Below, one piece after another: positions 3,200 through 32,329 of a stretch of 64,000 bases of DNA. The first letter of the stretch is position 1. The number at the start of each line of letters is the position of its first letter. Below the pieces are notes generated by a model that saw only the letters and a list, made by a program, of their open reading frames with translations, ran no database searches and was not told the origin of the DNA. The position numbers were made by a program, and so were the translations under genes. The stretch is taken from assembly GCF_001758425.2 (NCBI RefSeq), contig NZ_MDSS02000003.1:1-64000 (forward strand), given 5' to 3'. The DNA is from Nesterenkonia sp. PF2B19. GTDB taxonomy: Bacteria > Actinomycetota > Actinomycetes > Actinomycetales > Micrococcaceae.

Positions 3200-4187
3200 A
3201 TGAAGGCCCCTGCGCGACTCGGCCTATACGGGCTGATCCTCGTGACCCGTGTTCGCCGTGGCTGGATTCACGGCGAACGCGGTCATCGACGAGGACACCG
3301 TGCAGGCGTGGGTGGAAGAGACACCCGAAGATCACCACGGAGCGGACGGACACAGCACAGGAGGAGATGACATGAGCAGCGGCGGCCACGCTGGCCACGA
3401 GGCTGCTACGGCCTCGCTAGGCCTCGGCCTGGCCCAGGACGGATATCAACTCACACAGGTATCCGCCCCGACTCAAACCGGTGCCGAGGGCGAGCTGTCG
3501 CTAACGGTGACTGGACCCGATGGAAACCCGGTGACCGATTTCACCCTCGACCACGAGCAAGAGATGCACCTGATCGCCGTCCGGACTGATGGGCAGCAGT
3601 TTCGCCACGTCCACCCCGAACGGGATGAGGCTGGCAGGTGGTCCATCCCTTGGCAGTGGGAGACCGCAGGCAGCTACCGCGTCTTTGCTGACTTCGTACC
3701 CGAAGAGACCGGCGAAGGCATGACGCTGTCGACCACAGTTCAGGTTGCCGGCGACTACGATCCGGTACCCGCGGAGCAGCCGGTCACCCAGACCACTGTC
3801 AACGACTTCGATGTCGAGGTGACAGGCGATCTGGTGGCCGGTGAAGCCTCCGAGCTGACCATGACCATCAGCCGTGACGGTGATCCAGTCACCGAACTGG
3901 AGCCCTACCTGGGAGCCTTCGGCCACTTGGTGGCCCTGCGCGACGGCGACCTGGGCTACCTGCACGTCCATCCGCACGGCGATGCGCCCGAGGCCGGTGA
4001 GACCTCCGGGCCGGAGATCGTCTTCGAGGCCACCGCGCCCACACCAGGTCGGTACCTACTGTTCCTGGACTTCCAGGTCGACGGCGACGTGCACACGGCC
4101 CCGCTGGTCGTCGAGACCACCAGCAGCACCGACTCCGGCGACGCTGGCCAGGCCGACAACGAGGAAGGAGAGGACCATGACCACTGA
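3200..4187 (+). CDS. Membrane-anchored/secreted copper-cassette protein, frameshifted near N-terminus
   Basis: The natural start is the ATG at 3200, two bases after copZ, encoding a short hydrophobic anchor ([16 protein letters not shown]). The frame then shifts at the CCC run 3246-3248; dropping one C restores a continuous hydrophobic segment ([13 protein letters not shown]) and a protein of about 328 residues. The rest is extracytoplasmic, with a His/Asp-rich linker, two beta-rich halves each containing an HVHP motif (residues around 130 and 260), and a DHDH C-terminus. Proteins of this kind recur next to copZ and copA in actinobacterial copper cassettes; the biochemical role is not established, though periplasm-side copper binding is plausible. 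The last bases overlap the copA start by 11 nt. The shift may be a sequencing error. Confidence 0.7.
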
Positions 4188-6519
4188 GAACTCCAGCGCA
4201 CACGACATCAGCACTGGCGTGAACCTCACTGGTGTTGAGTTGAAGATCGGTGGCATGACCTGCGCCTCATGCGCGAATCGGATCGAGAAGAAGCTCAACA
4301 AGCTCGACGGCGTCGAGGCCAGCGTGAACTACGCGACCGAGAAGGCCAGCGTCACCGCCCCCGCCGACTACGACCCGGGCCTGCTGATCGCCGAGGTCGA
4401 GAAGACCGGCTACACCGCTGAACTGCCCACGCCCAAGGGCGGCAAGCCCAGCACGGCCGATGAGGGTGAGTCGCGTGAGGATGCCGAGATCCGGGTGCTC
4501 AAGCAGCGATTGATCGGTGCGGCGATCCTGGCGGTGCCGGTGATCCTGATGGCGATGATCCCGGCCCTGCAGTTCGACTTCTGGGGCTTTGCCTCTCTCG
4601 CGTTGGCCGCCCCGGTGGTGGTGTGGGCCGGCTGGCCTTTCCATAAGGCTGCCTGGGCGAATTTCAAGCATGGCGCGGCGACCATGGACACCTTGATCTC
4701 GGTGGGCACCAGTGCCGCGCTGATCTGGTCACTGGTCGCGCTGTTCTTCGGCACCGCCGGGGACCGCGGGGTGGTCCACCCCTTCGAGCTGACCATCTCC
4801 CGCACCGACGGACTGGGGCACATCTACCTGGAGGTCGCCGCCGGGGTGATCACCTTCGTCCTGCTGGGCCGCTACTTCGAGAAGACCTCCAAACGTCAAG
4901 CCGGAGCAGCCCTGCGGGCCCTGATGGAGCTGGGCGCCAAGGAAGTCTCGATCCTGCGCAACGGCAACGAAGAGCGCGTCTCCATCGACGAGCTCAACGT
5001 TGACGACGAGTTCGTGGTCCGCCCGGGCGAGAAGATCGCCACCGACGGGGTGATCAGCTCCGGCAGTTCCGCCATCGATGCCTCGATGCTCACTGGTGAA
5101 TCCGTGCCCGTGGAAGTCTCCGAGGGCGTCGCTGTCGCCGGTGCCACGGTCAATGCCGGCGGTCGGCTGGTGGTGCGGGCCACCCGGGTGGGCTCGGATA
5201 CCCAGCTGGCGCAGATGGCCAAGATGGTCGAGGACGCCCAGTCCGGCAAGGCCGAGATCCAGCGCCTGGTCGACCGGGTCTCCGGTGTGTTCGTGCCGAT
5301 CGCGATCGCGGTGGCCGTCGCCGCCCTGGGCGCATGGCTGATGGCCGGGTTCCCGGTCAGTGCAGCCTTCACCGCCACCGTGGCCGTGCTGATCATCGCC
5401 TGCCCGTGCGCCATGGGACTGGCCGCACCGACCGCACTACTGGTCGGCACCGGACGCGGAGCCCAGATGGGTGTTCTCATCAAGGGCCCTGAGGTGCTGG
5501 AATCCACCCGGAAGGTCGACACCATCGTGCTGGACAAGACCGGCACCGTCACCACCGGGAAGATGACCCTGACCGATGCCATCACTGCCGACGGGGTGAG
5601 TCGCGAAGAGCTGCTGAGGATCGCTGGCGGCTTGGAGGACTACTCCGAGCACCCCATCGCCCAGGCCATTGCCGCCGGGGCCACCGCCGAGGTCGGCGAC
5701 CTCCCCACCCCGGAGTCTTTCGAGAACATCGAGGGCAAGGGCGTGCAGGGAGTCGTCGATGGTCATGCCGTGGTTGCCGGTCGCGAAACGTTGCTGGCTG
5801 ACTGGTCGATGCCCCTCGATGAGGACCTTAAATCTGCCAAGCGGGCCGCTGAGACGGAGGGCAAGACTGCGATCACGGTCGGCTGGGACGGCCAGGCGCG
5901 AGGCGTGCTGGTGGTCTCCGATCAGATCAAGCCCACCTCTGCTGAGGCGATCAGCCAGTTCAAGGACCTCGGCCTGACCCCGGTGCTGCTGACCGGAGAC
6001 AACCAGACGGTGGCCGAGCAGGTCGCCGCCGAGGTCGGCATCGACCAGGTGATTGCCGAGGTGCTCCCCAAGGACAAGGTCGACGTGGTCGCCCGCCTCC
6101 AAGGTGAGGGAAAGGTGGTGGCGATGGTCGGTGACGGCGTCAACGACGCCCCCGCCCTGGCCCAGTCCGATCTGGGCCTGGCGATGGGCACCGGCACCGA
6201 TGTCGCCATCGAGGCCGCCGATATCACCTTGGTCCGCGGCGACCTGCGGGCTGCGGCGGATGCGATCCGCCTGGCACGCCGGACCCTGCGCACGATCAAG
6301 CAGAACCTGTTCTGGGCCTTCGGCTACAACAGCGCTGCCATCCCGATCGCCGCCTTCGGCCTGCTCAACCCCATGCTCGCCGGTGCCGCCATGGCCTTCT
6401 CCAGTGTCTCGGTGGTCTCCAACAGCCTCAGGTTGCGCAGGTTCAAGGCGAAGGCTGACAACCAAGCGGCCCCCGCCGCCAGTGCTGCCACACCTGCACG
6501 TGAGCCAGCTCGCGTGTGA
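4177..6519 (+). CDS. copA: Cu(I)-exporting P1B-1-type ATPase CopA
   Basis: A 780-residue P-type ATPase. One N-terminal HMA domain carries GMTCASC (Cys29, Cys32). The membrane metal site is CPC at Cys409 and Cys411, diagnostic of the Cu(I)/Ag(I) P1B-1 class. The actuator LTGES, the phosphorylation site DKTGT (Asp453) and the hinge GDGVNDAP are all present. It pumps Cu(I) out of the cytosol using ATP. The ATG at 4177 has GGAAGGAGAGG just upstream and overlaps the previous gene by 11 nt, so translation is probably coupled. Confidence 0.95.
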
Positions 6520-7627: not shown

Positions 7628-9787
7628 ATGAACAACACACACAATGCCCACCATCATCATGGCCACGCCGGCGGGCACATCAAGCAGGAGGACCGGTCGA
7701 CGCACCACCAGCCTGACAAGCACGATGGTCACCACGACCACCACGGGCATGGTGGACATGACCATCACGCCGGCCACGGCGGGCACGAGGGTCATGGTGA
7801 TCACGTCGGTCAGTTCCGCCGCCTGTTCTGGATCATGCTGGTCCTGGCGGTCCCGGTGGTGGGGTTCAACGAGATGTTCGCCCACCTGGTCGGCTACCAC
7901 CTGCCCGACGCCGAGTGGGTGTGGTGGGTCTCCCCGATCCTGGGCACCGTCATCTACTTCTGGGGCGGATGGCCCTTCCTGACCGGCGCGCTCTCAGAGA
8001 TCCGCTCTCGCAAGCCCGGGATGATGCTGCTGATCGGGCTGGCGATCACGGTGGCGTTCATCGCCTCGTGGGGCGCGAGCCTGCACATCCTGGATCATGA
8101 GCTGAACTTCTGGTGGGAGCTGGCCCTGCTGGTGGTCATCATGCTGCTGGGCCACTGGATCGAGATGCGCTCCCTGGCCCAGACCACCTCGGCACTCGAT
8201 TCGCTGGCCGCGTTGCTGCCCGACGAGGCGGAGAAGGTCGAGGGCGAGAACGTCGTCAAGGTCGCTCCTGCCGATCTGGCGGTCGGCGATGTGGTGATCG
8301 TCCGTCCCGGTGCCTCGGTGCCGGCCGACGGGAAGATCGTCGATGGCAGCGCGTCCATGGACGAGTCGATGATCACCGGTGAGTCCAAGCCGGTGCGACG
8401 CGACACCGGGGACCACGTGGTGGCGGGCACCGTCGCGACCGATTCCGGGCTGCGGGTCGAGGTCTCGGCCATCGGTGAGGACACCTCTCTGGCCGGTATC
8501 CAGAAGCTCGTCGCCGATGCGCAGGCCTCCTCGTCGCGGGCCCAGCGCATTGCCGATACCGCAGCTGCCTGGTTGTTCTGGTTCGCCCTCGGGGCCGCGG
8601 CGATCACCGCGGTCGTCTGGACCCTGCTCGGAGTCCCCGATGCCGCGGTGGTGCGCACCATCACCGTGCTGGTCATCGCCTGCCCCCACGCCCTGGGGCT
8701 GGCGATCCCACTCGTCGTGTCCATCGCTACTGAGCGTGCAGCCCGCGGCGGCGTGCTGGTCAAGGACCGGCTCGCCCTGGAATCCATGCGCACCGTCGAT
8801 GCGGTGCTCTTCGACAAGACCGGCACCCTGACCAAGGGCGAACCCACTGTCACCGGCATCGAACCCGTCGCGGGCTGGGAGGAAGACCAGGTGCTCGCAC
8901 TGGCCGCGGCCGCCGAAGCCGACAGCGAACACCCCCTGGCCCGCGCCATCACCGGAGCCGCCAGCACCAAGGACCTCCGGGTGCCGCCGGCTCAGGACTT
9001 CTCCTCCTCCCCGGCCGTCGGGGTCAGGGCCACGGTCGACGACATGACCATCGAGGTCGGTGGTCCCTACCTTCTCGAGCAGCACTCCAACGCAGAGTTG
9101 CCGATCGCCGACCAGTGGCGCGAGGAAGGCGCAATCATCCTGCATGTCCTGGCTGATGGGCAGATCATCGGGGCGCTGCGCCTCGCCGATGAGATCCGGC
9201 CAGAATCCCGTGATGCCGTGGATGCACTGCACGCAGCAGGAGCTCAGGTCGTCATGATCACCGGCGACGCCCAAGCCGTCGCCGACACCGTGGCTCTTGA
9301 ACTGGGCATAGACCGTGTCTTCGCTGGTGTTCGTCCCGAGGATAAGGCTGCCAAAGTCGCCGAACTCCAAGACGAAGGGAAGAAGGTGGCCATGGTCGGC
9401 GACGGCGTCAACGACGCCCCGGCCCTGGCCCAGGCGGACGTCGGCATCGCCATCGGAGCCGGCACCGATGTGGCCATCGGCTCAGCCGGGGTCATCCTCG
9501 CCTCCTCAGATCCGCGCTCGGTGCTCTCAGTCATCGACCTGTCCCGAGCCAGCTACCGCAAGATGAAGCAGAACCTCTGGTGGGCCGCCGGATACAACCT
9601 CGCCGCCGTGCCCCTGGCCGCAGGAGTCCTCGCACCCATCGGGTTCGTGCTGCCCATGAGCATCGGCGCGATCCTCATGTCAGTTTCCACGGTCGTCGTG
9701 GCGCTCAACGCCCAACTGCTACGCCGCCTCGACCTCGCACCCAAAGCGAGCACCAGCAAATTCCTCGACCGCTCCGCCCAGGGATAA
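7628..9787 (+). CDS. copB: Copper-translocating P-type ATPase CopB (CPH type)
   Basis: A 719-residue P1B-type ATPase with a very His-rich N-terminus of about 60 residues instead of an HMA domain. The transmembrane metal motif is CPH (Cys352-His354), the P1B-3 signature. ITGES, DKTGT (Asp396) and GDGVNDAP are intact. CopB-type pumps export copper (Cu(I)/Cu(II)) or silver. Having both CPC and CPH pumps in one operon suggests tolerance of high copper. It ends 29 nt before csoR. Confidence 0.92.
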   Translation: MNNTHNAHHHHGHAGGHIKQEDRSTHHQPDKHDGHHDHHGHGGHDHHAGHGGHEGHGDHVGQFRRLFWIMLVLAVPVVGFNEMFAHLVGYHLPDAEWVWWVSPILGTVIYFWGGWPFLTGALSEIRSRKPGMMLLIGLAITVAFIASWGASLHILDHELNFWWELALLVVIMLLGHWIEMRSLAQTTSALDSLAALLPDEAEKVEGENVVKVAPADLAVGDVVIVRPGASVPADGKIVDGSASMDESMITGESKPVRRDTGDHVVAGTVATDSGLRVEVSAIGEDTSLAGIQKLVADAQASSSRAQRIADTAAAWLFWFALGAAAITAVVWTLLGVPDAAVVRTITVLVIACPHALGLAIPLVVSIATERAARGGVLVKDRLALESMRTVDAVLFDKTGTLTKGEPTVTGIEPVAGWEEDQVLALAAAAEADSEHPLARAITGAASTKDLRVPPAQDFSSSPAVGVRATVDDMTIEVGGPYLLEQHSNAELPIADQWREEGAIILHVLADGQIIGALRLADEIRPESRDAVDALHAAGAQVVMITGDAQAVADTVALELGIDRVFAGVRPEDKAAKVAELQDEGKKVAMVGDGVNDAPALAQADVGIAIGAGTDVAIGSAGVILASSDPRSVLSVIDLSRASYRKMKQNLWWAAGYNLAAVPLAAGVLAPIGFVLPMSIGAILMSVSTVVVALNAQLLRRLDLAPKASTSKFLDRSAQG

Positions 9788-21273: not shown

Positions 21274-22746
21274 GTGCCCACGAAACAGAACGAGCACACG
21301 ACCGGGTCGTCGGAGTTGGTGCCGGTCAAGTTCTCCCGCCTGACCCGCCGCGGCATCCTCCTGGGGCTCTCGCTCTCCCAGCTCATCACCCTCGCCACCG
21401 GCATCCTCTCGGTGGTCGGTGCGCTCTACGCCGGTGGCGGCATCCTGCTCGCCTACACCGCACCCATCTGGGTGATCGCCGCGGCCTTGACGTGGATACC
21501 AATCGCCGGCCGGCCGACGGTCGAATGGCTGCCGGTGGCTTTCTGGTGGCTCTGGCGCACCACCGGAGGCCAACTCCTGTATCGCCGTCGTGTGGTCGCG
21601 CCTCGTCCGGTCGGAACACTGGCGCTACCCGGTGACATGGCAAGGCTGCGGGAGTACACCGACCCCGAAACGCACGCGGGGATGATCCACGACCCCCACC
21701 AGCAGACGTTGACCGTGGTCTGCGAAGTGAACCACCCCGCATTCGTGCTTCTCGACCCCGGCGAGCAGGAACGCCGCGTCACCTCCTGGGGGCGCGTCCT
21801 CGCCACCGTCTGCCGCTCCGGCCACATCGCCACCCTCCAAGTCTTGGAACGCACCCTGGCGGACTCGGGCACCGGACTGGCCGAATGGTGGGCATCCCAC
21901 GGCACCCAAGACGACACCTGGGCCGCGACCACCTACGCCGAGCTGATCGACAGGGCCGGGCCCGCCGGCGAGAGGCATGCGACCACGCTGTCGTTGTCGT
22001 TGGACATGAAGAACGCCGCGCGGCAGATCAGGACCGCCGGCGGCGGTATTCGCGGCGCCGCCGCCGTGCTCCGCCAGGAGATGTCCACCCTCGTCGCGGC
22101 GCTGCGCTCAGCCGACCTCACACCCTCGGGCTGGCTGTCACCGGGTGAGATCGCCGTCATCCTGCGCAGTGCGTATGACCCGGCGATCGCCGCCACGTTG
22201 GAGCGCCACGGTGAACTCGGTCAATCCCTGGCCACCGCCGGTCCGGTCGCGGTGAATGAGTCCTGGACCCGCTTGCGCACCGATTCGGCCCATCACGCGG
22301 TGTTGTGGGTCTCCGAGTGGCCGCGCTCGATGGTCTATCCGGGGTTCCTGTCCCCGGTGCTGCTGTCCACCGGCATCCAACGGTCCTTTTCGCTGATCTG
22401 TACCCCGATGCGCTCGGACCAGGCCGCCAGGGACATCCGGAAGAAGAAGGTCGAGCACATCAGCGACCAGGCGCAGCGGGCGAAGATCGGGCAGATCGAG
22501 GACGCCGCCCAGACCGCCGAGTATCAGGACGTGCTCCAGCAGGAGGCAGACCTGACCGCCGGACACGGCGTGCTGCGCTACACCGGCCTCATCTCCATCT
22601 CCGCCGCATCGGTGGAGAAGCTAGAGGCAGGGGTGGCGGCGATCGAACAGGCCGCCATTCAGGCATCCTGCGAAACCCAATTGTTGGTCGGTCAGCAGGC
22701 CGCCGCGTTCACTGCCGCTGCGTTGCCGTTGTGCCGCCGCGTCTGA
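21274..22746 (+). CDS. SCO6880-family transfer protein (VirB3-like membrane domain plus VirB4 N-terminal part)
   Basis: A 490-residue protein. Two transmembrane segments lie at about 30-85 (PrgI/VirB3-like), followed by a soluble region with the look of the N-terminal domain of VirB4 (TLTVVCEVNHPAFVLLDPGEQ, RRVTSWGRVLA, ISAASVEKLEAGVAAIEQAA). It has no Walker motifs; the ATPase half is the separate gene at 25149. The order SCO6880 gene, small gene, VirB4 is typical in actinobacterial elements. Start GTG at 21274. Confidence 0.8.
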   Translation: MPTKQNEHTTGSSELVPVKFSRLTRRGILLGLSLSQLITLATGILSVVGALYAGGGILLAYTAPIWVIAAALTWIPIAGRPTVEWLPVAFWWLWRTTGGQLLYRRRVVAPRPVGTLALPGDMARLREYTDPETHAGMIHDPHQQTLTVVCEVNHPAFVLLDPGEQERRVTSWGRVLATVCRSGHIATLQVLERTLADSGTGLAEWWASHGTQDDTWAATTYAELIDRAGPAGERHATTLSLSLDMKNAARQIRTAGGGIRGAAAVLRQEMSTLVAALRSADLTPSGWLSPGEIAVILRSAYDPAIAATLERHGELGQSLATAGPVAVNESWTRLRTDSAHHAVLWVSEWPRSMVYPGFLSPVLLSTGIQRSFSLICTPMRSDQAARDIRKKKVEHISDQAQRAKIGQIEDAAQTAEYQDVLQQEADLTAGHGVLRYTGLISISAASVEKLEAGVAAIEQAAIQASCETQLLVGQQAAAFTAAALPLCRRV

Positions 22747-22749
22747 CCG

Positions 22750-23817
22750 TCACTCCGGGCTGGTTGGCTTGACGAGGATGGTTGCGGCCGGGTCGACATC
22801 GGGAGCCCAGGCCAGCGTCGGGAGCTCGGCACCATCGAGGCCGTCGAGTTCGAGGCGGACCTTCCCGGCCAGGTGGGCCGAGTTGACGGACTGACCGTTG
22901 GCGATGGAGGCGTAGAACTGGGCTGCGTAGTTGATCGCGTCGCCGTCGTCGATCTCATCGGCCATCCCGATGGCGAACGGCACCACTTGCTCCACGAGTG
23001 CATCGATCTGTGACGCGGAGTTGCAGGAGTTCAGCAAGACCAGCAGTGGCGGGTCGTCGGTGGCTCGGATGGCGTTCGCGAAAGCCGTGGCGGTGACGAT
23101 CACGCCGTCGTGGGGTTCATCTTGCTCGTCCTCGAACACGATGAGGTCATCGTCGCTGTGTCCGGAGAAGTGCACCACGTGTGGCCGGAACTTCGTGATG
23201 CCGTCGAGAAGGTCGGCTGTCGTGGCGGCGGGTCGCACGTCGAGGTCGATCTGGTCGCGATGCAAGGCCGACTCGACCGCGGATCGGATGCGCTTCTGCT
23301 CACGCCCCACGCGCAGGTCCCCTTCAGACGACGCCCCAAGGATGAGGACACGGAGCTTCTCGGGCTTGGGTGCGGGTAACTGTCGCAGAGCGTGATCCAC
23401 GGCGGATTCAGTCTGGCTGATGCGGGAGTCGAGCGCTGCCTTCTCGGTCGCGGCACGCCGCTCGGCCTGCTGCTGCTCTCGCTTACGCCGCCGCTCGGCG
23501 GCATCGGCTTCGGACCGCTCTGCACGCGTGAGCTTCGTCTGCAACGACGACTCTTCCTTCGCATAGCCGGTGGCCTTGGTCTGCCAGCGGCCCGCTTCCT
23601 TGCCCGCAGTCTCAGCCTCCTTGTCCTTGCGCTCGGCCTCACGAAGCTTGCTCTTGGCGGTGGACTCGCTCTTGGTCTTCGCCGCGGCCTGGCGAGCCTT
23701 GGCCGCCTCGGCACGCTTGGTGGACTCCTTGGATCGGTAGTCCCCGGCCTTCTTCTCCGCCTCGACCCGCTGCTTGCGCTTGCGTTCGAGCTGTCCTCGG
23801 TACTGACTCGCGCTCAT
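22750..23817 (-). CDS. Coiled-coil CHAT-domain (caspase-like) protease
   Basis: A 355-residue protein encoded against the direction of the secretion operon, its end 3 bp from the SCO6880 stop. Residues 1-140 are a long Lys/Glu/Ala/Arg coiled coil. Residues 152-350 form a CHAT domain with the predicted dyad His220 (HFSGHSDDD) and Cys265 (LLVLLNSCNSA). The last 20 residues are loose. A ribosome binding site GAGGAGAGG precedes the ATG. CHAT proteases are caspase-like peptidases that act in programmed cell death and phage defence when switched on by a sensor. No sensor or gasdermin gene is adjacent, so the coiled coil may sense or multimerise. Function is inference. Confidence 0.85.
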   Translation of the reverse strand: MSASQYRGQLERKRKQRVEAEKKAGDYRSKESTKRAEAAKARQAAAKTKSESTAKSKLREAERKDKEAETAGKEAGRWQTKATGYAKEESSLQTKLTRAERSEADAAERRRKREQQQAERRAATEKAALDSRISQTESAVDHALRQLPAPKPEKLRVLILGASSEGDLRVGREQKRIRSAVESALHRDQIDLDVRPAATTADLLDGITKFRPHVVHFSGHSDDDLIVFEDEQDEPHDGVIVTATAFANAIRATDDPPLLVLLNSCNSASQIDALVEQVVPFAIGMADEIDDGDAINYAAQFYASIANGQSVNSAHLAGKVRLELDGLDGAELPTLAWAPDVDPAATILVKPTSPE

Positions 23818-23892
23818 TGTTCCTCTCCTCGCCTCGCTACCCCCTCGGCTTTCACGCTACGCCGGACCGCCGACATCTCTGGTGGACCGCGG

Positions 23893-23905
23893 GCGCACCT
23901 GCCTG
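23893..23905 (+). promoter_or_regulatory. GCGCACCTG leader motif ahead of the gene at 23936
   Basis: GCGCACCTGCCTG lies 31 nt before the ATG at 23936, right after the CHAT gene's promoter region. Having the motif here suggests that the downstream genes keep the element's own leader and that the CHAT gene was inserted just before it. Confidence 0.4.
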
Positions 23906-23935
23906 ACACACATTCCGTGCCAGGGAGGCCCGATC

Positions 23936-25170
23936 ATGCCCACGTTCCACGACCCGCGCACCGATGCGTTCGAAGCCTCCGAGGCGCTGCGCGGTCTCGC
24001 TCACGCCTCCCGCGTGTTCGATGACCCGGCCGACACCTACACCGTGTTCGGTGAACTCGTGGCCGGAGTCCGGTCGCTGCGCCAGGTGCTCGACCAGCTC
24101 GCCACCACCCATCTGACGCCCGGGATCGCGTGTCCGACGACCACGGCGACCCCGCCGCGGGCTCGGCGTCCGCGTTGGCAGCCGCTGATGAGCTGCACCA
24201 GGCCGGCACCCTGCTCGATCAGGCCTACGACCGGCTCGCCGCGGCGTTCACCCACTCTGGGAGGGTTGCCTGGCACCCCGAACCGGTCGTCGACCGAGAC
24301 GCCGCGCGGGAGCGGCTGGCCGCCCGGCTCGACGGCGACCCCACCACCACGACTGTGCAGGCCGGGTCGCTGACGTTGGCGGTGTGGCCCGATGCCCCGG
24401 TGGGTGAGCATCAGCGCTACGCCTACCGGATAACCGACACCAACACAGGTCAGGAGCTGGACGGGCGGGACCTGTTCACCGGCGCCGGCCAGCCCGTCGA
24501 CCCAAACCGAGCCATCCGGGACCTGGCCGGGTATCTGGGCGCGGCAGGCGAGGCCCGCCAGTACGCACTCGATCATCCCGCCAGCAATCCGGAGAACGGG
24601 GGCCTGTTCCCCGCCTGGGTGGCCGAGGCCGCCCGCACCAACACCGACGCCCTGGCTGAACTGTCCGAGCACAGCCACATCGAACTCGGCGAGGGTGCGG
24701 TCTCACAACGGTGGATCAGCGTGGCCTTCCTCCAGGGCGAAGAAGCCGATCGGGTGCTCGACCTGATCGATCGCGACGGCCCTGACTCCGCCATCGAACA
24801 CCTGAAGAGCTGGGACTACGGCGAGGAGACCACCGACGCGGCGATGGAGAACGGCTACGTCTACGACGACCAGCCCCCAGCAAGCGGCACCGACCGGACC
24901 GCCACCAGCGGCGAGTACGCGGTGACCTACAACCACGCCCTCGGACACGTCGGCCTTTACCGACAGCTCGACACCCCACCCGACCCGGCACTCCTGGACG
25001 ACCCGCTCGTTCCAGCGAGCAACACGGCGGGAGCGACGCCTCGCGCGCAGCAGACGCCTCCGGTGCACGAGGGGCGTGAGCCACGACGTGCGGCGCTGGG
25101 GACGGAGCGCGACTGGTTCGCCCACCAGACCAGCACCTCCAACCGTCAATGGCAGGGGTTGTCGCTGTGA
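23936..25170 (+). CDS. Conserved ICE protein next to VirB4, apparent frameshift
   Basis: The ATG at 23936 opens a frame (MPTFHDPRTDAFEASEALRG, then a helical VRSLRQVLDQLATTHL). After about residue 63 the matching continuation lies in another frame, from 24130 on (SDDHGDPAAG, AADELHQAGTLLDQAYDRL). Adding one G to the GGG run at 24124-24126 would join them into a protein of about 411 residues. The second half holds a domain with DTNTGQELDGRDLF and a low-complexity C-terminus. GTG 24130 could instead start a separate gene. Function unknown; it sits between SCO6880 and VirB4 and overlaps the VirB4 gene. Confidence 0.6.
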
Positions 25171-26660
25171 GCGGCACCGAGCCGGAGCGGCTGCACACCT
25201 CGGTCCTGGTCGCACCCGCCGCCGAGCGCCGCCGGTTGCGCAAGCAGCGTCGCCAAGCGGCCACACGACTCCAGGCCGAACAACGCGCCACCGAGAAGGC
25301 CACCACACGAGCCAAGGTCGAGGCCGAGCGGGCCGAACGCCGCGCGACGAGGTATCTGCCTGCCGCGGGCGAGCCCGGTCCGGCGGCGCTCAGGTCACCG
25401 GGCCGATTCCGGCTCCCACGTCATCAAGACACGTCCGCGACGTTGGCGGGGGCGTATCCGTTCGTCGCCGAAGGCGGCCTGGGCTCCAACGGGGTGTTCG
25501 TGGGCCAAGACCTCTACTCCGGCGGATCGTTCGTCTACGACCCCTGGGTGCTCTACGCCCGCGGGATCATCACCGCACCCAACGTCGTGCTGGCCGGGAT
25601 CGTCGGGTCCGGCAAGTCCTCCCTCGCCAAGTCCCTCTACACCCGGTCTCTGCCGTTCGGGCGTCGCGTCTACGTCCCCGGCGATCCGAAAGGCGAACAC
25701 ACTGCCGTGGCTGAGGCAGTCGGCGGGAGGGCGATCGTCCTCGGCCACGGCCTCAACACCAGACTCAACCCCCTGGACGAGGGTCACCGTCCCGGCGGGC
25801 TCACCGATGAGCAGTGGAAGACGACCGTGGCTTCGCGGCGTCGTGACCTGATTGGTGCCTTGGCTGAGACCGTTCTGGCCCGCGGGTTGACGCCGTTGGA
25901 GCACACCGCGATCGACCTCGCCCTCACCACCGCGGTGCGCGAGAACGACGTGCCGATCCTGCCGATGGTCGTCGACCACATCCTCAACCCCGCCCACCAC
26001 GACAACGATGACGGGCGGCTGGCCGAGGACGGGCGCCTCGTCGGCCACGCCCTGCGGCGCCTAGTCGCTGGCGACCTCCAAGGCCTCTTCGACGGACCCA
26101 GCACGGTCCAGTTTGATCCGGCGTTGCCGATGATCAGCCTGGACCTCTCACGGGTAACGGAGAACTCCACGCTCATCAGCGTGTTGATGACGTGCTCCAG
26201 CGCGTGGATGGAGTCCGCGCTGCTCGACCCAGCCGGTGGGCAGCGGTGGGTGATCTACGACGAAGCCTGGCGACTCATGTCTCACCCGGCCTTGTTGAAG
26301 CGCATGGATGCGCACTGGCGGCTGGCACGCCATTACGGGATCGCGAACATGCTGATCTTCCACAAGCTCTCCGACCTCGACAACGTCGGCGACCACGGCT
26401 CGGCCATGCGCTCCCTCGCCAACAGCCTCCTGGCGAACGCGGAGACCCGGATTGTGTACCGGCAGGAATCCGACCAGCTCGGCCCTACCGCCACCGCGCT
26501 CGGGCTGACCGGCACCGAGCAGAAGCTGCTCCCATCGCTGGGGGTCGGGCAGGGGTTGTGGCGGATCAAGGATCGCTCCTTCGTGACCCAACACCAGCTC
26601 CACCCCGCCGAAATGTCGCTGTTCGACACCAGCTCCCGGCTCACAAAGGGGGTCGTGTGA
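25149..26660 (+). CDS. virB4: VirB4-type conjugation ATPase
   Basis: A protein of 503 residues from ATG 25149, or 497 from the GTG at 25167 that overlaps the previous stop as GTGA. It has a basic N-terminal helix, then an AAA+ ATPase domain with Walker A GIVGSGKSS (about 150-158) and Walker B WVIYDEAW (about 370-378), followed by a conserved ANMLIFHKLSDL segment. VirB4 powers channel assembly and substrate transfer. The short N-terminal part fits the split arrangement with the SCO6880 protein. Confidence 0.88.
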   Translation: MAGVVAVSGTEPERLHTSVLVAPAAERRRLRKQRRQAATRLQAEQRATEKATTRAKVEAERAERRATRYLPAAGEPGPAALRSPGRFRLPRHQDTSATLAGAYPFVAEGGLGSNGVFVGQDLYSGGSFVYDPWVLYARGIITAPNVVLAGIVGSGKSSLAKSLYTRSLPFGRRVYVPGDPKGEHTAVAEAVGGRAIVLGHGLNTRLNPLDEGHRPGGLTDEQWKTTVASRRRDLIGALAETVLARGLTPLEHTAIDLALTTAVRENDVPILPMVVDHILNPAHHDNDDGRLAEDGRLVGHALRRLVAGDLQGLFDGPSTVQFDPALPMISLDLSRVTENSTLISVLMTCSSAWMESALLDPAGGQRWVIYDEAWRLMSHPALLKRMDAHWRLARHYGIANMLIFHKLSDLDNVGDHGSAMRSLANSLLANAETRIVYRQESDQLGPTATALGLTGTEQKLLPSLGVGQGLWRIKDRSFVTQHQLHPAEMSLFDTSSRLTKGVV

Positions 26661-27220
26661 TGGCCCCGAAGAAGCAACGCCGCACCACCTGGCAGGACCC
26701 CGCCCAGACCCCGGTACTGCTGCCACACGTCGTCATAACGGTCGCCGAGAACGGCGCCCTAGACGTCACCGTCGACGGCGCACCATTCCCGCCACCACAA
26801 CAGGATTCCGCTTGGACGCGCGGCACCTTCGGTGAACTCATGGATGCCGTCACCTCCGACCGCACCATCACGGTGCGGATCGAGGTCCGCGAAAGCGACG
26901 GGACGGTGTTCACCGACCTCATCCGCGCTCGCAAACCCACCCCGGCAGAACGCGCAGAGACCAAGCCGCCCGAACCGCGTGGCAAGCACACCACGACCAA
27001 ACACACGGCGGAGCTGATGGAGGTCACCGGAGAGGGATTCATCCCCGGCGAAGACATCGCCGTCGCCGTCGTCGTCGCGCACACCGACGCCACCGGCACC
27101 GGCCACGCTCGCGCCCTAATCGACACCGGCCAACTCGCTCCTGTCCTGGCCGGCGGCACCGAGGAGGTCTTGCTGCTGGGGCGGGTCTCAGGCACCCTGC
27201 ACATCCGGCGGCTCTCATGA
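26660..27220 (+). CDS. Hypothetical protein between VirB4 and VirD4
   Basis: A 186-residue soluble protein starting at an ATG that overlaps the VirB4 stop (TGATG). A first domain of beta character (VVITVAENGALDVTVDG, then TITVRIEVRESDG) and a second (GFIPGEDIAVAVVVAHTDATGTG, ending EEVLLLGRVSGTLHIRRLS) are joined by a charged linker. I do not recognise it; its place points to a coupling-protein accessory. Its stop overlaps the TraG start as ATGA. Confidence 0.65.
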   Translation: MAPKKQRRTTWQDPAQTPVLLPHVVITVAENGALDVTVDGAPFPPPQQDSAWTRGTFGELMDAVTSDRTITVRIEVRESDGTVFTDLIRARKPTPAERAETKPPEPRGKHTTTKHTAELMEVTGEGFIPGEDIAVAVVVAHTDATGTGHARALIDTGQLAPVLAGGTEEVLLLGRVSGTLHIRRLS

Positions 27221-28989
27221 CGACCGGGCAACGGCAGACCGGGAGCATGGGCGATGAGCTGACCAACGCCGCCATCATCGCTCTGATCGGCGCCTTCGGC
27301 TTCACGCTCGTCCTACGCGCCGCAGGCAGCGTGGCGGCGTTCCTCACCGGCACACCCCAACCGGCTGCCGGGCCGGCGTCGGGGCTCGGTGTGCTGTTCA
27401 ATCCCGCCGAGCCCGCGATGGCATTGGATGCCGAGGGGTTGAGTCCCGTCGCGTACTGGATCACCACCTCTCTCCTGCTCGGCGTGCTTGTTGCGGCGGG
27501 TGTGTGGGTGTGGGTGCGTCTACGTCGTCACTCGCGGAAGGTCGAGACCGACCCGCGCCGCCTGGCCGGCACCGCCACCCCCCACGAGGTCACCCAAACC
27601 GCCTCGGCCAAGGCGCTACTGCGCCGGGCAGGGACACTGCGCCCCTCGCTGGATGATCCCAAGCCTTCCGATGTCGGCTACCTGCTGGGGCGCTCACGAG
27701 GCAAGCAGGTGTGGGCGAGTGTGGAGGACTCGATCCTGCTCATCGGCCCACCCCGCTCCGGCAAAGGCCTGCACGTGGTCATCAACGCCATCCTCGACGC
27801 CCCCGGCGCCGTCGTCACCACCAGCACCAGGCCGGACAACCTCACCGCCACCCTGCGTGCCCGACAGCGAGACGGTCGGCCGGTGGCGGTGTTCGACCCT
27901 CAGCATCTGGCCGAAGGCATCCCCGCTGGGATGCGCTGGTCACCCATCCGCGGCTGCCACGACCCGCTGACCGCGATGATCCGCGCCACCGGACTCGCCT
28001 CCGCCACCGGGCTCAGTGCTGGTGGGGTCGAATCCGGGGGCTTCTGGGAAGTCAAGACCCGCACAGCCTTGCAAGCCCTCCTGCACGCTGCCGCCCTCGA
28101 TGGACGCCCGCCATCGGAGCTGTTCCGGTGGACCCTCGACCCGACCGCCGCGGCCGAGGCCGTCGCCATCCTCACCAACAGCACCCAGGCAGCCACCGGG
28201 TGGGCGGACTCCCTCGGGGCGATGATCGATTCGGACCCCAAGACGCGGGACTCGATCTGGCAGGGCGTAGCCCTCGCCCTCGGCGCCCTCGCTGATCCTC
28301 GCGTGCTCGATGCGGTGTCGCCGGGTCCGGGTGAAGGCTTCGACCCAGAGACCTTCATCCGTCAGCGCGGCACCCTCTACCTGCTCGCCACCGGCGCCGG
28401 TGCCGGCGCCTCCGCCGCCCTCGTAGCCGCGTTCGTCGAAGACCTCATCGAGACCGCCCGCCGGATCGCCGCCCGCTCACCCGGCGCCCGGCTCGACCCG
28501 CCGTTATTGCTGGCGCTCGATGAGATCGGCAACCTCGCACCCCTGCCTAGCCTCCCCACGTTGATGGCAGAAGGCGGCGGCACCGGCATCACCACCCTGC
28601 CCGTCCTCCAGTCGTTGGCCCAGGCGCGGGAGAAGTGGTCCGACAACGCCGCCGGCGCCATCTGGGACGCCAGCATCGTCAAGGTCGTCCTCGGTGGCGC
28701 CTCCAACTCCCGCGACCTCCAAGACCTGAGCACTCTCATCGGCGAGAGGGACGAGTACACCGACTCGTTGACCCTCGGAGACCACGGCAGCCGCTCCAAC
28801 CAACGCTCCGTCCGCCGCGTCCCGATCCTGCCCCCAGACCGAATCAGAACCCTGCCATTCGGCACCGGCGTCACCCTGCTGCGCTCGGCACCACCGATCG
28901 TCACCGACCTGCGCCCCTGGCCGACCCGAACTGACGCAGCTCGGTTGACGGCCGATCGGGCCGAGGTCGAAGCGTTGCTTAAACGCTGA
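27217..28989 (+). CDS. VirD4/TraG-type coupling protein
   Basis: A 590-residue protein with two N-terminal transmembrane segments (about 20-45 and 80-107), a Walker A GPPRSGKG (Gly177 on) and a Walker B LLLALDEIGNL (about 428-438), followed by the conserved GITTLPVLQSLAQAREKW helix read in part. Coupling proteins link the DNA-relaxase complex to the type IV channel. ATGA overlap at the start. No relaxase gene was recognised nearby to serve as partner. Confidence 0.88.
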   Translation: MTTGQRQTGSMGDELTNAAIIALIGAFGFTLVLRAAGSVAAFLTGTPQPAAGPASGLGVLFNPAEPAMALDAEGLSPVAYWITTSLLLGVLVAAGVWVWVRLRRHSRKVETDPRRLAGTATPHEVTQTASAKALLRRAGTLRPSLDDPKPSDVGYLLGRSRGKQVWASVEDSILLIGPPRSGKGLHVVINAILDAPGAVVTTSTRPDNLTATLRARQRDGRPVAVFDPQHLAEGIPAGMRWSPIRGCHDPLTAMIRATGLASATGLSAGGVESGGFWEVKTRTALQALLHAAALDGRPPSELFRWTLDPTAAAEAVAILTNSTQAATGWADSLGAMIDSDPKTRDSIWQGVALALGALADPRVLDAVSPGPGEGFDPETFIRQRGTLYLLATGAGAGASAALVAAFVEDLIETARRIAARSPGARLDPPLLLALDEIGNLAPLPSLPTLMAEGGGTGITTLPVLQSLAQAREKWSDNAAGAIWDASIVKVVLGGASNSRDLQDLSTLIGERDEYTDSLTLGDHGSRSNQRSVRRVPILPPDRIRTLPFGTGVTLLRSAPPIVTDLRPWPTRTDAARLTADRAEVEALLKR

Positions 28990-30435: not shown

Positions 30436-30619
30436 TAAGCGTACGCATGCCAGCGGCCGCTCAGGTGGTCGTGGTGTGGCGTCTTGTTTATTAGCCTCGT
30501 GGCCTACCCAGCCCGTCCACGCCGGACGGCACGGGTCGTGTTTGTTTCCTACGTCGCACCGCACGAGCAGTCTCGCGCTCTCGTGTTGGCCCCACCCGTT
30601 GGGGAAGGAAACACGACCC
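30436..30619 (+). promoter_or_regulatory. Recombinase leader with RBS-sequestering stem
   Basis: GGTCGTGTTT and TTTCC (30534-30549) can pair with GGAAACACGACC (30607-30618), which overlaps the GGAAGG ribosome binding site two bases before the recombinase ATG. A second inverted repeat, CCGTCC and GGACGG (30513-30518 and 30524-30529), lies just upstream, and the 8-bp palindrome GCGTACGC lies near 30439. This leader could hold recombinase translation off unless opened. Confidence 0.5.
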
Positions 30620-32329
30620 ATGAGCACCACACACCCTCCGCTGGTGACGGCGCCCGATCAGATCGGTGCGACAACGACGTTGGCGGTGACCTACCTGCGC
30701 GTCTCGACCAAGGAGCAGGCGTCCAAGGGCGGCCAGGATGAGGGCTTCTCCATCCCGGCCCAGCGTCAGGCGAATCTGCGCAAGGCCCAGGAGGTCAACG
30801 CGGTCATCGTCGAGGAGTTCGTCGACGCCGGCGAGTCCGCTCGCCAGGCCGACCGGCCGGCGCTGATGGAGATGATCGAGTACGTCAAGACCCACCCTGT
30901 GGCCTACTGCATCGTCCACAAGGTCGACCGGCTCGCGCGCAACCGTGCCGACGATGTCGCCATCCACCTCGCCCTCAAAGAGGCAGGCGTCCTGCTGGTC
31001 TCAGCGACCGAGAACATCGATGAGACGCCCTCGGGGATGCTGCTGCACGGGATCATGTCCACCATCGCGGAGTTCTACTCCCGCAACCTGGCCAACGAGG
31101 TCTCCAAGGGCATGAACCAGAAGGCCGTCACCGGCGGCACCAACGGCAAGGCCCCGATGGGCTACCTCAACGTCACCCGGCGCGACGAACTCGGTCGCGA
31201 GGTCCGCACTATCGACATCGACCCACAGCGCGGCCCGATCATCCGGTGGGCCTTCGAGGCCTACGCCACCGGGAACTACTCGGTCGCCACGCTGCGCGAT
31301 GAACTCATCGACCGCGGCCTGACGACCGTGCCTACCCCGAAGCGGCCCGCCAAGGCTCCCGCGTTGTCCTCGATCCACCGGATGCTGGCCAGCCCGTACT
31401 ACAAGGGCAACGTGCAGTTCAAAGGCGCCACCTACGACGGCCTGCACGAACCCCTGGTCGCTCCCGAGGTCTGGTACCGGGTCCAGACCGTGCTCGCCGC
31501 CCACCAGGCCTCCGGGGAGAAGACCCAGGCCCACGAGCACTACCTCAAAGGCACCGTGTTCTGCGGCACCTGCGGCTCGCGGTTGATCCTGTCCAACGCC
31601 CGCAGCCGCAGCGGCGTGATCTACCCCTACTTCATCTGCGCCGGCCGGCACTCCAAGCGCACCAACTGCGACCGCAAGTCCATGTTCGTGCCCGACGTGG
31701 AGGCCGCCGTGGAGGACTACTACCGACGCGTGCAGATACCCGCCCACATCGTCACCGCGCTGCGCGAGCTGATCACCAGCGAGTTCGACCGGCTCTTCGC
31801 CACCGCCAAGACAGAACGCAAAGCCCAGGTCGCTGAACGCGAGCACCTCTCCGACGAGCGCACCAAGCTGCTCCAGGCCCACTACGCCGGGGCCGTGCCG
31901 CTGGACCTGCTCAAGACCGAACAGGACCGCATCGCCCGACAGATCGCGTTCCTCGACTCACGGATCGAGGCCAGCGAGATCGAGTACGACCAGGCCCGCG
32001 CCCATCTCGATGACTGCCTGGCACTGGCAGGCAACGCCCACGCGATCTACACGAGCATCGACGACTCACTGCGCCGCATCGCCAACCAGGCCTTCTTCGA
32101 ACGCCTCACCGTCACCGACGACGACACCATCGACGCCGAACCAGGAGTGCCCTTCGATACCCTGTTCAACCCCGAAGTCCAGGCCACCGCCCTCTCCCGC
32201 CAGACAGCAGGTGGAAAGGGGACGCCTCAAACCGGAAACGTCGCTGGTTTGAACAACGACGCTCTGGTGCCCCCGGCAGGATTCGAACCTGCGACACCCG
32301 CTTTAGGAGAGCGGTGCTCTATCCCCTGA
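30620..32329 (+). CDS. Large serine recombinase (integrase) of the ICE
   Basis: A 569-residue reading frame from ATG 30620. The resolvase-type catalytic domain carries the nucleophile Ser29 (TYLRVSTKEQ) and R-x-DRPAL and VDRLARNR motifs; a recombinase DNA-binding domain follows (about 190-300), then a zinc ribbon (FCGTCGS, Cys315 and Cys318, with the later FICAG and TNCDRK cysteines) and a coiled coil (about 375-470). The last 20 or so codons read antisense through the tRNA gene, so this C-terminus exists only in the integrated state. The enzyme should integrate and excise the element. Tyrosine recombinases are the usual choice for tRNA targets, so a serine enzyme here is less common. Confidence 0.88.
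   Translation: MSTTHPPLVTAPDQIGATTTLAVTYLRVSTKEQASKGGQDEGFSIPAQRQANLRKAQEVNAVIVEEFVDAGESARQADRPALMEMIEYVKTHPVAYCIVHKVDRLARNRADDVAIHLALKEAGVLLVSATENIDETPSGMLLHGIMSTIAEFYSRNLANEVSKGMNQKAVTGGTNGKAPMGYLNVTRRDELGREVRTIDIDPQRGPIIRWAFEAYATGNYSVATLRDELIDRGLTTVPTPKRPAKAPALSSIHRMLASPYYKGNVQFKGATYDGLHEPLVAPEVWYRVQTVLAAHQASGEKTQAHEHYLKGTVFCGTCGSRLILSNARSRSGVIYPYFICAGRHSKRTNCDRKSMFVPDVEAAVEDYYRRVQIPAHIVTALRELITSEFDRLFATAKTERKAQVAEREHLSDERTKLLQAHYAGAVPLDLLKTEQDRIARQIAFLDSRIEASEIEYDQARAHLDDCLALAGNAHAIYTSIDDSLRRIANQAFFERLTVTDDDTIDAEPGVPFDTLFNPEVQATALSRQTAGGKGTPQTGNVAGLNNDALVPPAGFEPATPALGERCSIP
32227..32252. repeat. Inverted repeat 12 nt from the tRNA end, candidate attachment-site arm
   Basis: TCAAACC (32227-32233) and GGTTTGA (32246-32252) flank a 12-nt spacer. 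Serine integrase attachment sites are imperfect palindromes of 40-50 bp, and this lies at the junction of element and tRNA. It could also be a weak bidirectional terminator. The crossover point itself cannot be set without the left end. Confidence 0.4.

Follow-up and report, generated by a model that had tools for sequence, protein, structure and literature searches.

Among CHAT proteases, SAVED-CHAT is the output arm in type III CRISPR. Its structure has been solved as an activated filament, according to the title of entry 8tl0, and TPR-CHAT (Csx29) of Craspase is described as belonging to the same class of proteases. A different output is found in SpbK of the element ICEBs1, described as a protein whose helical N-terminal domain binds to the portal of the phage and brings the TIR NADase into clusters (PMC12847820). 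The DUF4062 proteins (Swarozyc) are likewise described as portal-triggered antiphage NADases (PMC13174449), and PDC-S66 is a phage-defence candidate of PADLOC that is called uncharacterized in PMC12482510.

We have analyzed a window of 64,000 nucleotides of Nesterenkonia sp. PF2B19 (contig NZ_MDSS02000003.1) that carries, within an ICE, a gene for a protein with a predicted helical hairpin followed by a CHAT domain (22750-23817, minus strand, 355 aa counted from its ATG in the ORF list). Like SpbK, it is a single ICE-carried gene with no partner among ORFs of at least 60 aa and joins a helical N-terminal domain to a catalytic one; by analogy with the published description of SpbK, this catalytic domain may also work on clustering, with abortive infection as the proposed outcome. 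The architecture differs, since SpbK is described as a 4-helix bundle plus TIR and the window protein has a long helical hairpin plus CHAT, and Pfam detected no TIR NADase of the SpbK type. The N-terminal module of PDC-S66 is found in register in three CHAT proteins (the window protein, the distant relative L101 and one of Shewanella), but the C-terminal half of PDC-S66 is a TIR. Because the TIR is replaced by CHAT, the window protein would work like SpbK or PDC-S66 but belongs to neither. As to Swarozyc, a DUF4062 gene fills the same ICE slot in a sister element (L067), although the described catalytic domain is a TIR-like NADase and not a CHAT. SAVED-CHAT (8tl0) has the closest CHAT domain both by sequence and by fold; however, the window protein has no SAVED domain by Pfam, has a hairpin N-terminus and is encoded with T4SS genes at both sides instead of CRISPR. 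It also differs from Craspase, with no TPR by Pfam and no gRAMP among the surrounding T4SS genes. Among titles and abstract openings we found no publication that deals with a hairpin-CHAT protein or with a module common to TIR and CHAT proteins. On balance we favour the reading that this is a stand-alone mobile immune effector, cargo of a variable slot of actinobacterial ICEs, i.e., a candidate defence protease boosted by DNA damage and similar to SpbK but with a CHAT output. Judging from sequence, it probably combines alarm and killing in one self-contained defence gene.

Position within the transfer operon

The CHAT gene is placed tail-to-tail with a SCO6880-family T4SS gene (21274-22746, plus strand; NF042935, E 4e-135) that forms the left edge of the slot, their stop codons being 3 bp apart. 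At the other side it is head-to-head with a conserved gene (23936-25170, plus strand, start set by likeness to L063), the right edge of the slot, which leads into genes for a VirB4-like conjugation ATPase (25149-26660) and a VirD4/TraG coupling protein (27217-28989). The large serine recombinase of the element is found at 30476-32329; these last three genes, all on the plus strand, were assigned by sequence matches. The CHAT gene has its own ribosome binding site, a GGAGAGGAA box at 23820-23828 (minus strand), 2 nt ahead of the ATG. The initial annotation had described a lone CHAT gene with its own ribosome binding site, on the opposite strand inside an ICE secretion operon and 3 bp from the SCO6880-like stop, and the coordinates confirm this picture.

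Two minor observations concern the surroundings. The right-edge gene appears in the window (23882-25170) as two overlapping frames (ORFs 23882-24373 and 24130-25170) and as a single continuous ORF in three other loci (L062, L063 and L138), so that the split either is genuine or stems from an error of assembly. Two P-type metal ATPases (3874-6519 and 7628-9787) precede the transfer genes and are possibly metal-resistance cargo of the element.

The CHAT domain

The Pfam scan of the window protein detected CHAT (PF12770) over residues 141-309 (E 5e-8, 33.1 bits against a gathering score of 24) and no other domain. From the Pfam match and the likeness to 8tl0, the only solved structure related by sequence (E 2e-16), the caspase-like domain was delimited to residues 155-337 (22807-23355, minus strand). 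The predicted catalytic residues His220 (codon 23158-23160, minus strand) and Cys265 (23023-23025, minus strand) align with the HFIGH and NAC stretches of 8tl0, respectively. Both are invariant in 27 of 27 aligned rows, the window protein among them (alignment A1, compiled without broken or truncated copies and without some of the near-identical ones). The dyad proposed before is correctly numbered and retained in the homologs. An AlphaFold2 model built on the 27 rows had a mean pLDDT of 80.8 and a pTM of 0.54, the latter making the arrangement of the domains uncertain. In the model, an N-terminal helical hairpin (residues 3-47 and 51-144) is followed by an alpha/beta domain in which two loops, 163-169 and 224-238, are of low confidence. 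Foldseek comparison of the predicted model gave SAVED-CHAT as the best match (E 5e-13) and caspases next (E 5e-5). A caspase-like fold closest to SAVED-CHAT is thus predicted for the CHAT domain, the core being kept in the structure prediction that had been proposed as a check. The gene is under purifying selection, with dN/dS values of 0.044-0.159 in the ten pairs computed. These values were higher in the hairpin half in 8 of the 10 pairs, the exceptions being two close pairs (L017/L077 and L003/L005).

An N-terminal hairpin common to TIR proteins

The N-terminal module (residues 1-144; 23386-23817, minus strand) is predicted as two helices with the turn at a conserved TxSxST-like motif. The 140-residue coiled coil described initially is thereby refined to a predicted two-helix hairpin. 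The PADLOC profile PDC-S66 matched the window protein at E 1.7e-9, with residues 1-134 on profile positions 1-134, and the same register was found in L101 (1-138 on 1-138) and in the Shewanella CHAT protein (4-135 on 3-134). Proteins matching the profile at full length (L085-L087) terminate in a TIR domain, and the window protein does not, Pfam giving CHAT only. Comparison by hhalign of the CHAT N-termini with the TIR N-termini, the latter represented by 3 sequences only, gave a probability of 95.4 and E 1.8e-8 over residues 13-80, the turn included.

The match is specific. When 340 class genomes were searched with a profile of the CHAT N-termini, four reached 1e-5; in three of these the matching proteins were CHAT proteins, and in the fourth the protein contained an AAA ATPase region, with Pfam scores under the gathering scores. 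A protein of 1005 aa in a same-class genome (L104:46-3063) has the hairpin module before an AAA/STAND-like ATPase region. The joint profile of CHAT and TIR N-termini matched in 8 of 396 genomes, of which five had supplied rows, one was the window itself and two were new: another hairpin-TIR protein (L110, its TIR read by likeness to L085) and a short ORF (L111). As far as sequence comparison can tell, the hairpin is one module, common in register to CHAT and TIR proteins, which would be alternative effectors. The initial annotation had pointed out that no known sensor is adjacent; by analogy, sensing would most likely fall to the N-terminus of the protein itself.

Among the variants, the hairpin-TIR genes L175:5585-7071 and L173 have a PIN-like gene immediately behind them and a DNA-methylase-like gene adjoining (labels read from sequence). 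The distant hairpin-CHAT gene L172:8906-10221 and a DUF1883 gene have 4 bp in common, and DUF1883 is fused to TIR in L178, which suggests that DUF1883 is a second exchangeable partner domain.

A variable cargo slot

A contig scan retrieved 34 relatives of the CHAT protein, 65-95% identical in the best segment, and the gene is therefore not a chance ORF. In 19 of them it is found at the same interval between SCO6880 and VirB4 and on the opposite strand, making 20 ICEs with the window; the other 15 are located elsewhere. Four of the 20 slot copies are broken, by an insertion (L018) or by frame breaks (L026, L027 and L035). The same ICE is also present on L008, a contig from a MAG assigned to Armatimonadota. 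Its CHAT protein hardly differs from those of the Propionibacteriaceae L006 and L007, and the contig is probably misbinned. The distribution is patchy: the whole-genome search gave any match in 10 of 98 relative genomes, that of the window included (four were strong, five were weak matches to CHAT and one was a fragment), and at 1e-20 the protein was found in 4 of 345 genomes of the class, again counting the window's own.

We surveyed the slot using VirB4 as bait rather than CHAT. VirB4 was present in 12 of the 98 relative genomes, and none of the 14 fetched slots with both edges contained a CHAT gene (L076 and L081 were dropped for not having both edges, and an insertion near the VirB4 start in L074 was not counted as cargo). 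Other genes were found in six of the 14: an ORF of about 140 real residues (L064), a 620-aa protein (L065) and a 197-aa one (L068), both with no PADLOC match, a group of four genes including an ATPase and a hydrolase with weak PADLOC matches only (L066), a DUF4062/PDC-S60 gene with a convincing PADLOC match (L067, the sister ICE) and a metal-uptake binding protein read from sequence by eye (L069). Over the order, VirB4 was detected in 30 of 297 genomes, including that of the window, at 33 places. From these, 28 new slots were fetched, after setting aside that of the window, three seen before and one lying at the edge of a contig. CHAT was present in one, as a frameshifted copy (L152, probably the same genome as L026), and absent from 27, and at least five had other genes, namely L140 (an ABC transporter), L143, L149, L153 and L154; the cargo of L143, L149 and L154 had no PADLOC match. 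In total, the 42 slots found by VirB4 contained one frameshifted CHAT and at least 11 cases of other genes, the rest being empty or unresolved by the gene caller.

The CHAT gene is an accessory gene, carried as cargo by an actinobacterial ICE in a slot of variable content. A core function in transfer (T4SS) was rejected, the slot being usually found with no CHAT gene (0/14 and 1/28). Nor are homologs restricted to the secretion module, with 15 of the 34 relatives located elsewhere and sister slots having no CHAT. We speak of a cargo slot and not of a defence slot because no cargo other than DUF4062 gave a convincing match in PADLOC.

Exchange in and out of the element

When location in the ICE slot is mapped on a tree built from 30 CHAT proteins, 5 changes are required, at least 3 of them forced by well-supported branches. 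One case is L009, a 97% identical protein encoded outside the ICE and near a BREX locus (the start of brxA is 2.7 kb downstream). L009 and the ICE L003 have 1514 bp in common at 92.7%, extending past both ends of the gene, as if the L009 copy had been cut from an ICE slot, to judge from these flank scars. Further copies sit on plasmids. The idea of a phage-borne gene was rejected, as no copy was found in phage records and no close relative in IMG/VR.

The annotation had also considered an exclusion factor or a guard against loss of the element. More broadly, the gene might serve the ICE itself, by excluding related elements, controlling transfer or killing cells that lose the element. Carriage at the same slot in 20 ICEs, the window included and 4 broken copies among them, is in line with such a role. 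So is the correlation of CHAT identity with SCO6880 identity over 171 pairs of ICEs (Pearson r 0.87), which speaks against free mobility and indicates that many copies stayed with their own element but fits an ICE-linked role as well. However, sister ICEs do without the gene, and in L018, L027 and L035 it is broken while SCO6880, VirB4 and VirD4 are matched nearly end to end. No antidote-like partner was found among the neighbour ORFs of at least 60 aa, other copies are on plasmids, and the near-identical L009 copy with its ICE flank scars sits beside BREX. The 97% identical protein outside an ICE disfavours ICE-specific exclusion or anti-loss roles, and we consider a gene at the service of the ICE very improbable. 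Of the options in that earlier proposal, a single-gene defence stands as the best reading.

Neighbours outside the ICE slot

Recurrence of hairpin-CHAT proteins at other cargo spots had been suggested as a check, and we have examined 22 loci outside the slot, plasmid copies included. A recognised defence gene was found near seven of the 22 (about 5 independent), a raw count, uncorrected for background, of loci picked after viewing. These were BrxA/B/C near L009, a type II R-M system in L077, AbiV in L077 and L017 (by Pfam, not by PADLOC), a type III R-M system in L078 and in L079, which cluster together, an AbiJ-like gene lying 108 bp ahead of the copy in Shewanella (L166), and R-M genes near the Curtobacterium plasmid copy L167. 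L078 has in addition an OLD-like gene 7 bp upstream, and the members of the pairs L017/L077 and L078/L079 share neighbours. None of the other 15 loci yielded a neighbour singled out as a defence gene; a PADLOC scan of their 135 pooled neighbours gave few matches in 29 families, which among the matches listed had mostly one member each and included Cas7e, Cas6e, PDC-S07, PDC-M58A (L022) and RmrA.

Among 288 neighbour ORFs (at least 60 aa) from 29 loci, 6 of them ICEs, no recurring partner family was found beside the copies outside ICEs, where the only recurrences were recombinases, transposases, R-M genes and pairs common to two loci. A toxin-antitoxin or other multi-gene system was rejected on these grounds, and the gene either works by itself or has partners that are unlinked. 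The second option would make the protein the output arm of a multi-gene system, with a sensor or second-messenger synthase encoded elsewhere, as with SAVED-CHAT. The closeness of SAVED-CHAT to its CHAT domain speaks for this, together with the match of the PADLOC model SAVED_CHAT to the distant relative L101, whose gene and a DUF1883 gene have an overlap of 4 bp. But CHAT is the only Pfam domain of the window protein, and the copies outside ICEs have no recurrent neighbour and no common company. We regard such an output arm as distinctly unlikely. A single-gene defence is the best reading because of the defence neighbours at 7 of 22 loci, the DUF4062 gene in a sister slot, the lack of a recurrent partner and the hairpin common to a family of candidate-defence TIR proteins.

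A promoter motif of the DNA-damage type

Aligning the DNA upstream of the CHAT genes revealed a conserved block. It resembles the LexA-independent DNA-damage promoter, for which the consensus tTGTCRgtg-8 nt-TannnT is given in PMC5656591; this RecA-NDp (P1) motif is described as the route through which PafBC acts (PMC6789036). We scored it as TGTCNGTG-N8-TANNNT within 150 bp of the gene start. The window site (23854-23875, minus strand) ends 36 bp before the ATG and matches the upper-case positions of the consensus and the spacing, with a single mismatch to the searched pattern in its lower-case part. In the first set, 24 of 42 copies had the exact motif and 28 had it with at most one mismatch, against 0.00 and 0.11 copies expected from dinucleotide shuffling. 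Five plasmid homologs were added later: the four full-length ones (52-77% identical, two being near-identical S. anulatus copies) all had it exactly, and the fifth, L191 of Streptomyces clavuligerus, has the CHAT domain with neither hairpin nor motif. Over the 46 copies the motif was exact in 28 and within one mismatch in 32.

With the copies clustered at 85% identity, the motif is present in 12 of 21 groups (14/26 at 90%, 7/15 at 80% and 4/8 at 70%). The nine groups lacking it are L021/L027, L024, L028/L029, L030/L167, L031, L078, L166, L170 and L172; of these L166 is the Shewanella copy, outside the actinobacteria, and L078, 7 bp behind the OLD-like gene, may be read through from it. Single copies with no motif (L014 and L020) also occur inside groups that have it. 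As a control, at most one mismatch was found before 5 of about 519 other genes of the same loci (seven matches minus the CHAT genes of L025 and L035), with gene starts from a simple in-house caller and many of the loci related. The exact pattern is present 7 times in the host genome and once when reversed, and the seven sites had no tie to repair genes; within 400 bp of the host recA there is one site with one mismatch and identical spacing. A scan for the sigma-70 consensus upstream found nothing, and the hairpin-TIR variants had the motif in 0 of 4 cases. By its sequence, the block carried by many CHAT copies is a promoter motif of the PafBC/RecA-NDp DNA-damage type.

The same motif could instead mark a protease of the DNA-damage response or of cell death that is induced by PafBC and would cleave proteins of the host so as to stop or kill cells with heavy damage, phages not being its purpose. 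The promoter type in 12 of 21 groups, resembling the site of the host recA, would be expected of it, and no phage trigger is known. The patchy distribution (the 4 of 345 class genomes above), the mobile locations, the defence neighbours at 7 of 22 loci and the same N-terminal module on TIR proteins argue against it, and we hold it to be fairly unlikely.

For the defence protease that we favour, the following course can be proposed, with sensing, activation, substrate and cell fate taken from analogy. The gene would be kept low and its expression boosted by PafBC upon DNA damage, e.g., by an invading phage. The hairpin would then sense, or be clustered by, a component of the invader. Clustering might order the loops around the active site (163-169 and 224-238) and so switch on the CHAT protease, which would cleave one or more host or invader proteins; the infected cell would stop or die, and the element and the sibling cells would survive. 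If this is right, a protease-armed counterpart joins the single-gene defences armed with TIR, a mobile gene is tied to the PafBC damage response and the cargo slot of actinobacterial ICE transfer operons is a place to seek accessory or defence genes. More tentatively, and with less than even confidence, we suggest that one hairpin sensor module might serve single-protein immune receptors with interchangeable outputs (TIR, CHAT and, in one actinobacterial protein, AAA/STAND-like) and that the actinobacterial CHAT version might be switched by the LexA-independent PafBC. One N-terminal module would then serve several kinds of killing enzyme, as is the case for immune receptors of animals and plants, and PafBC, a chromosomal repair regulator, would be the control point for a mobile defence gene.

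The idea that actinobacterial defence genes generally carry the P1 motif was dropped, the other 8 slot-cargo loci tested having none. Among the later plasmid cases, at most one mismatch was found in 1 of 3 for brxA and in 0 of 3 for DUF4062. Individual cases do exist: a P1-like motif precedes brxA of L009 (upstream of L009:11746, with 1 mismatch) and the type II methylase of L077 (upstream of L077:7138, exact), and the DUF4062 (Swarozyc-type) gene L067:2745-3602 is preceded by an exact motif of the P1/RecA-NDp type, 6 bp from the ATG.
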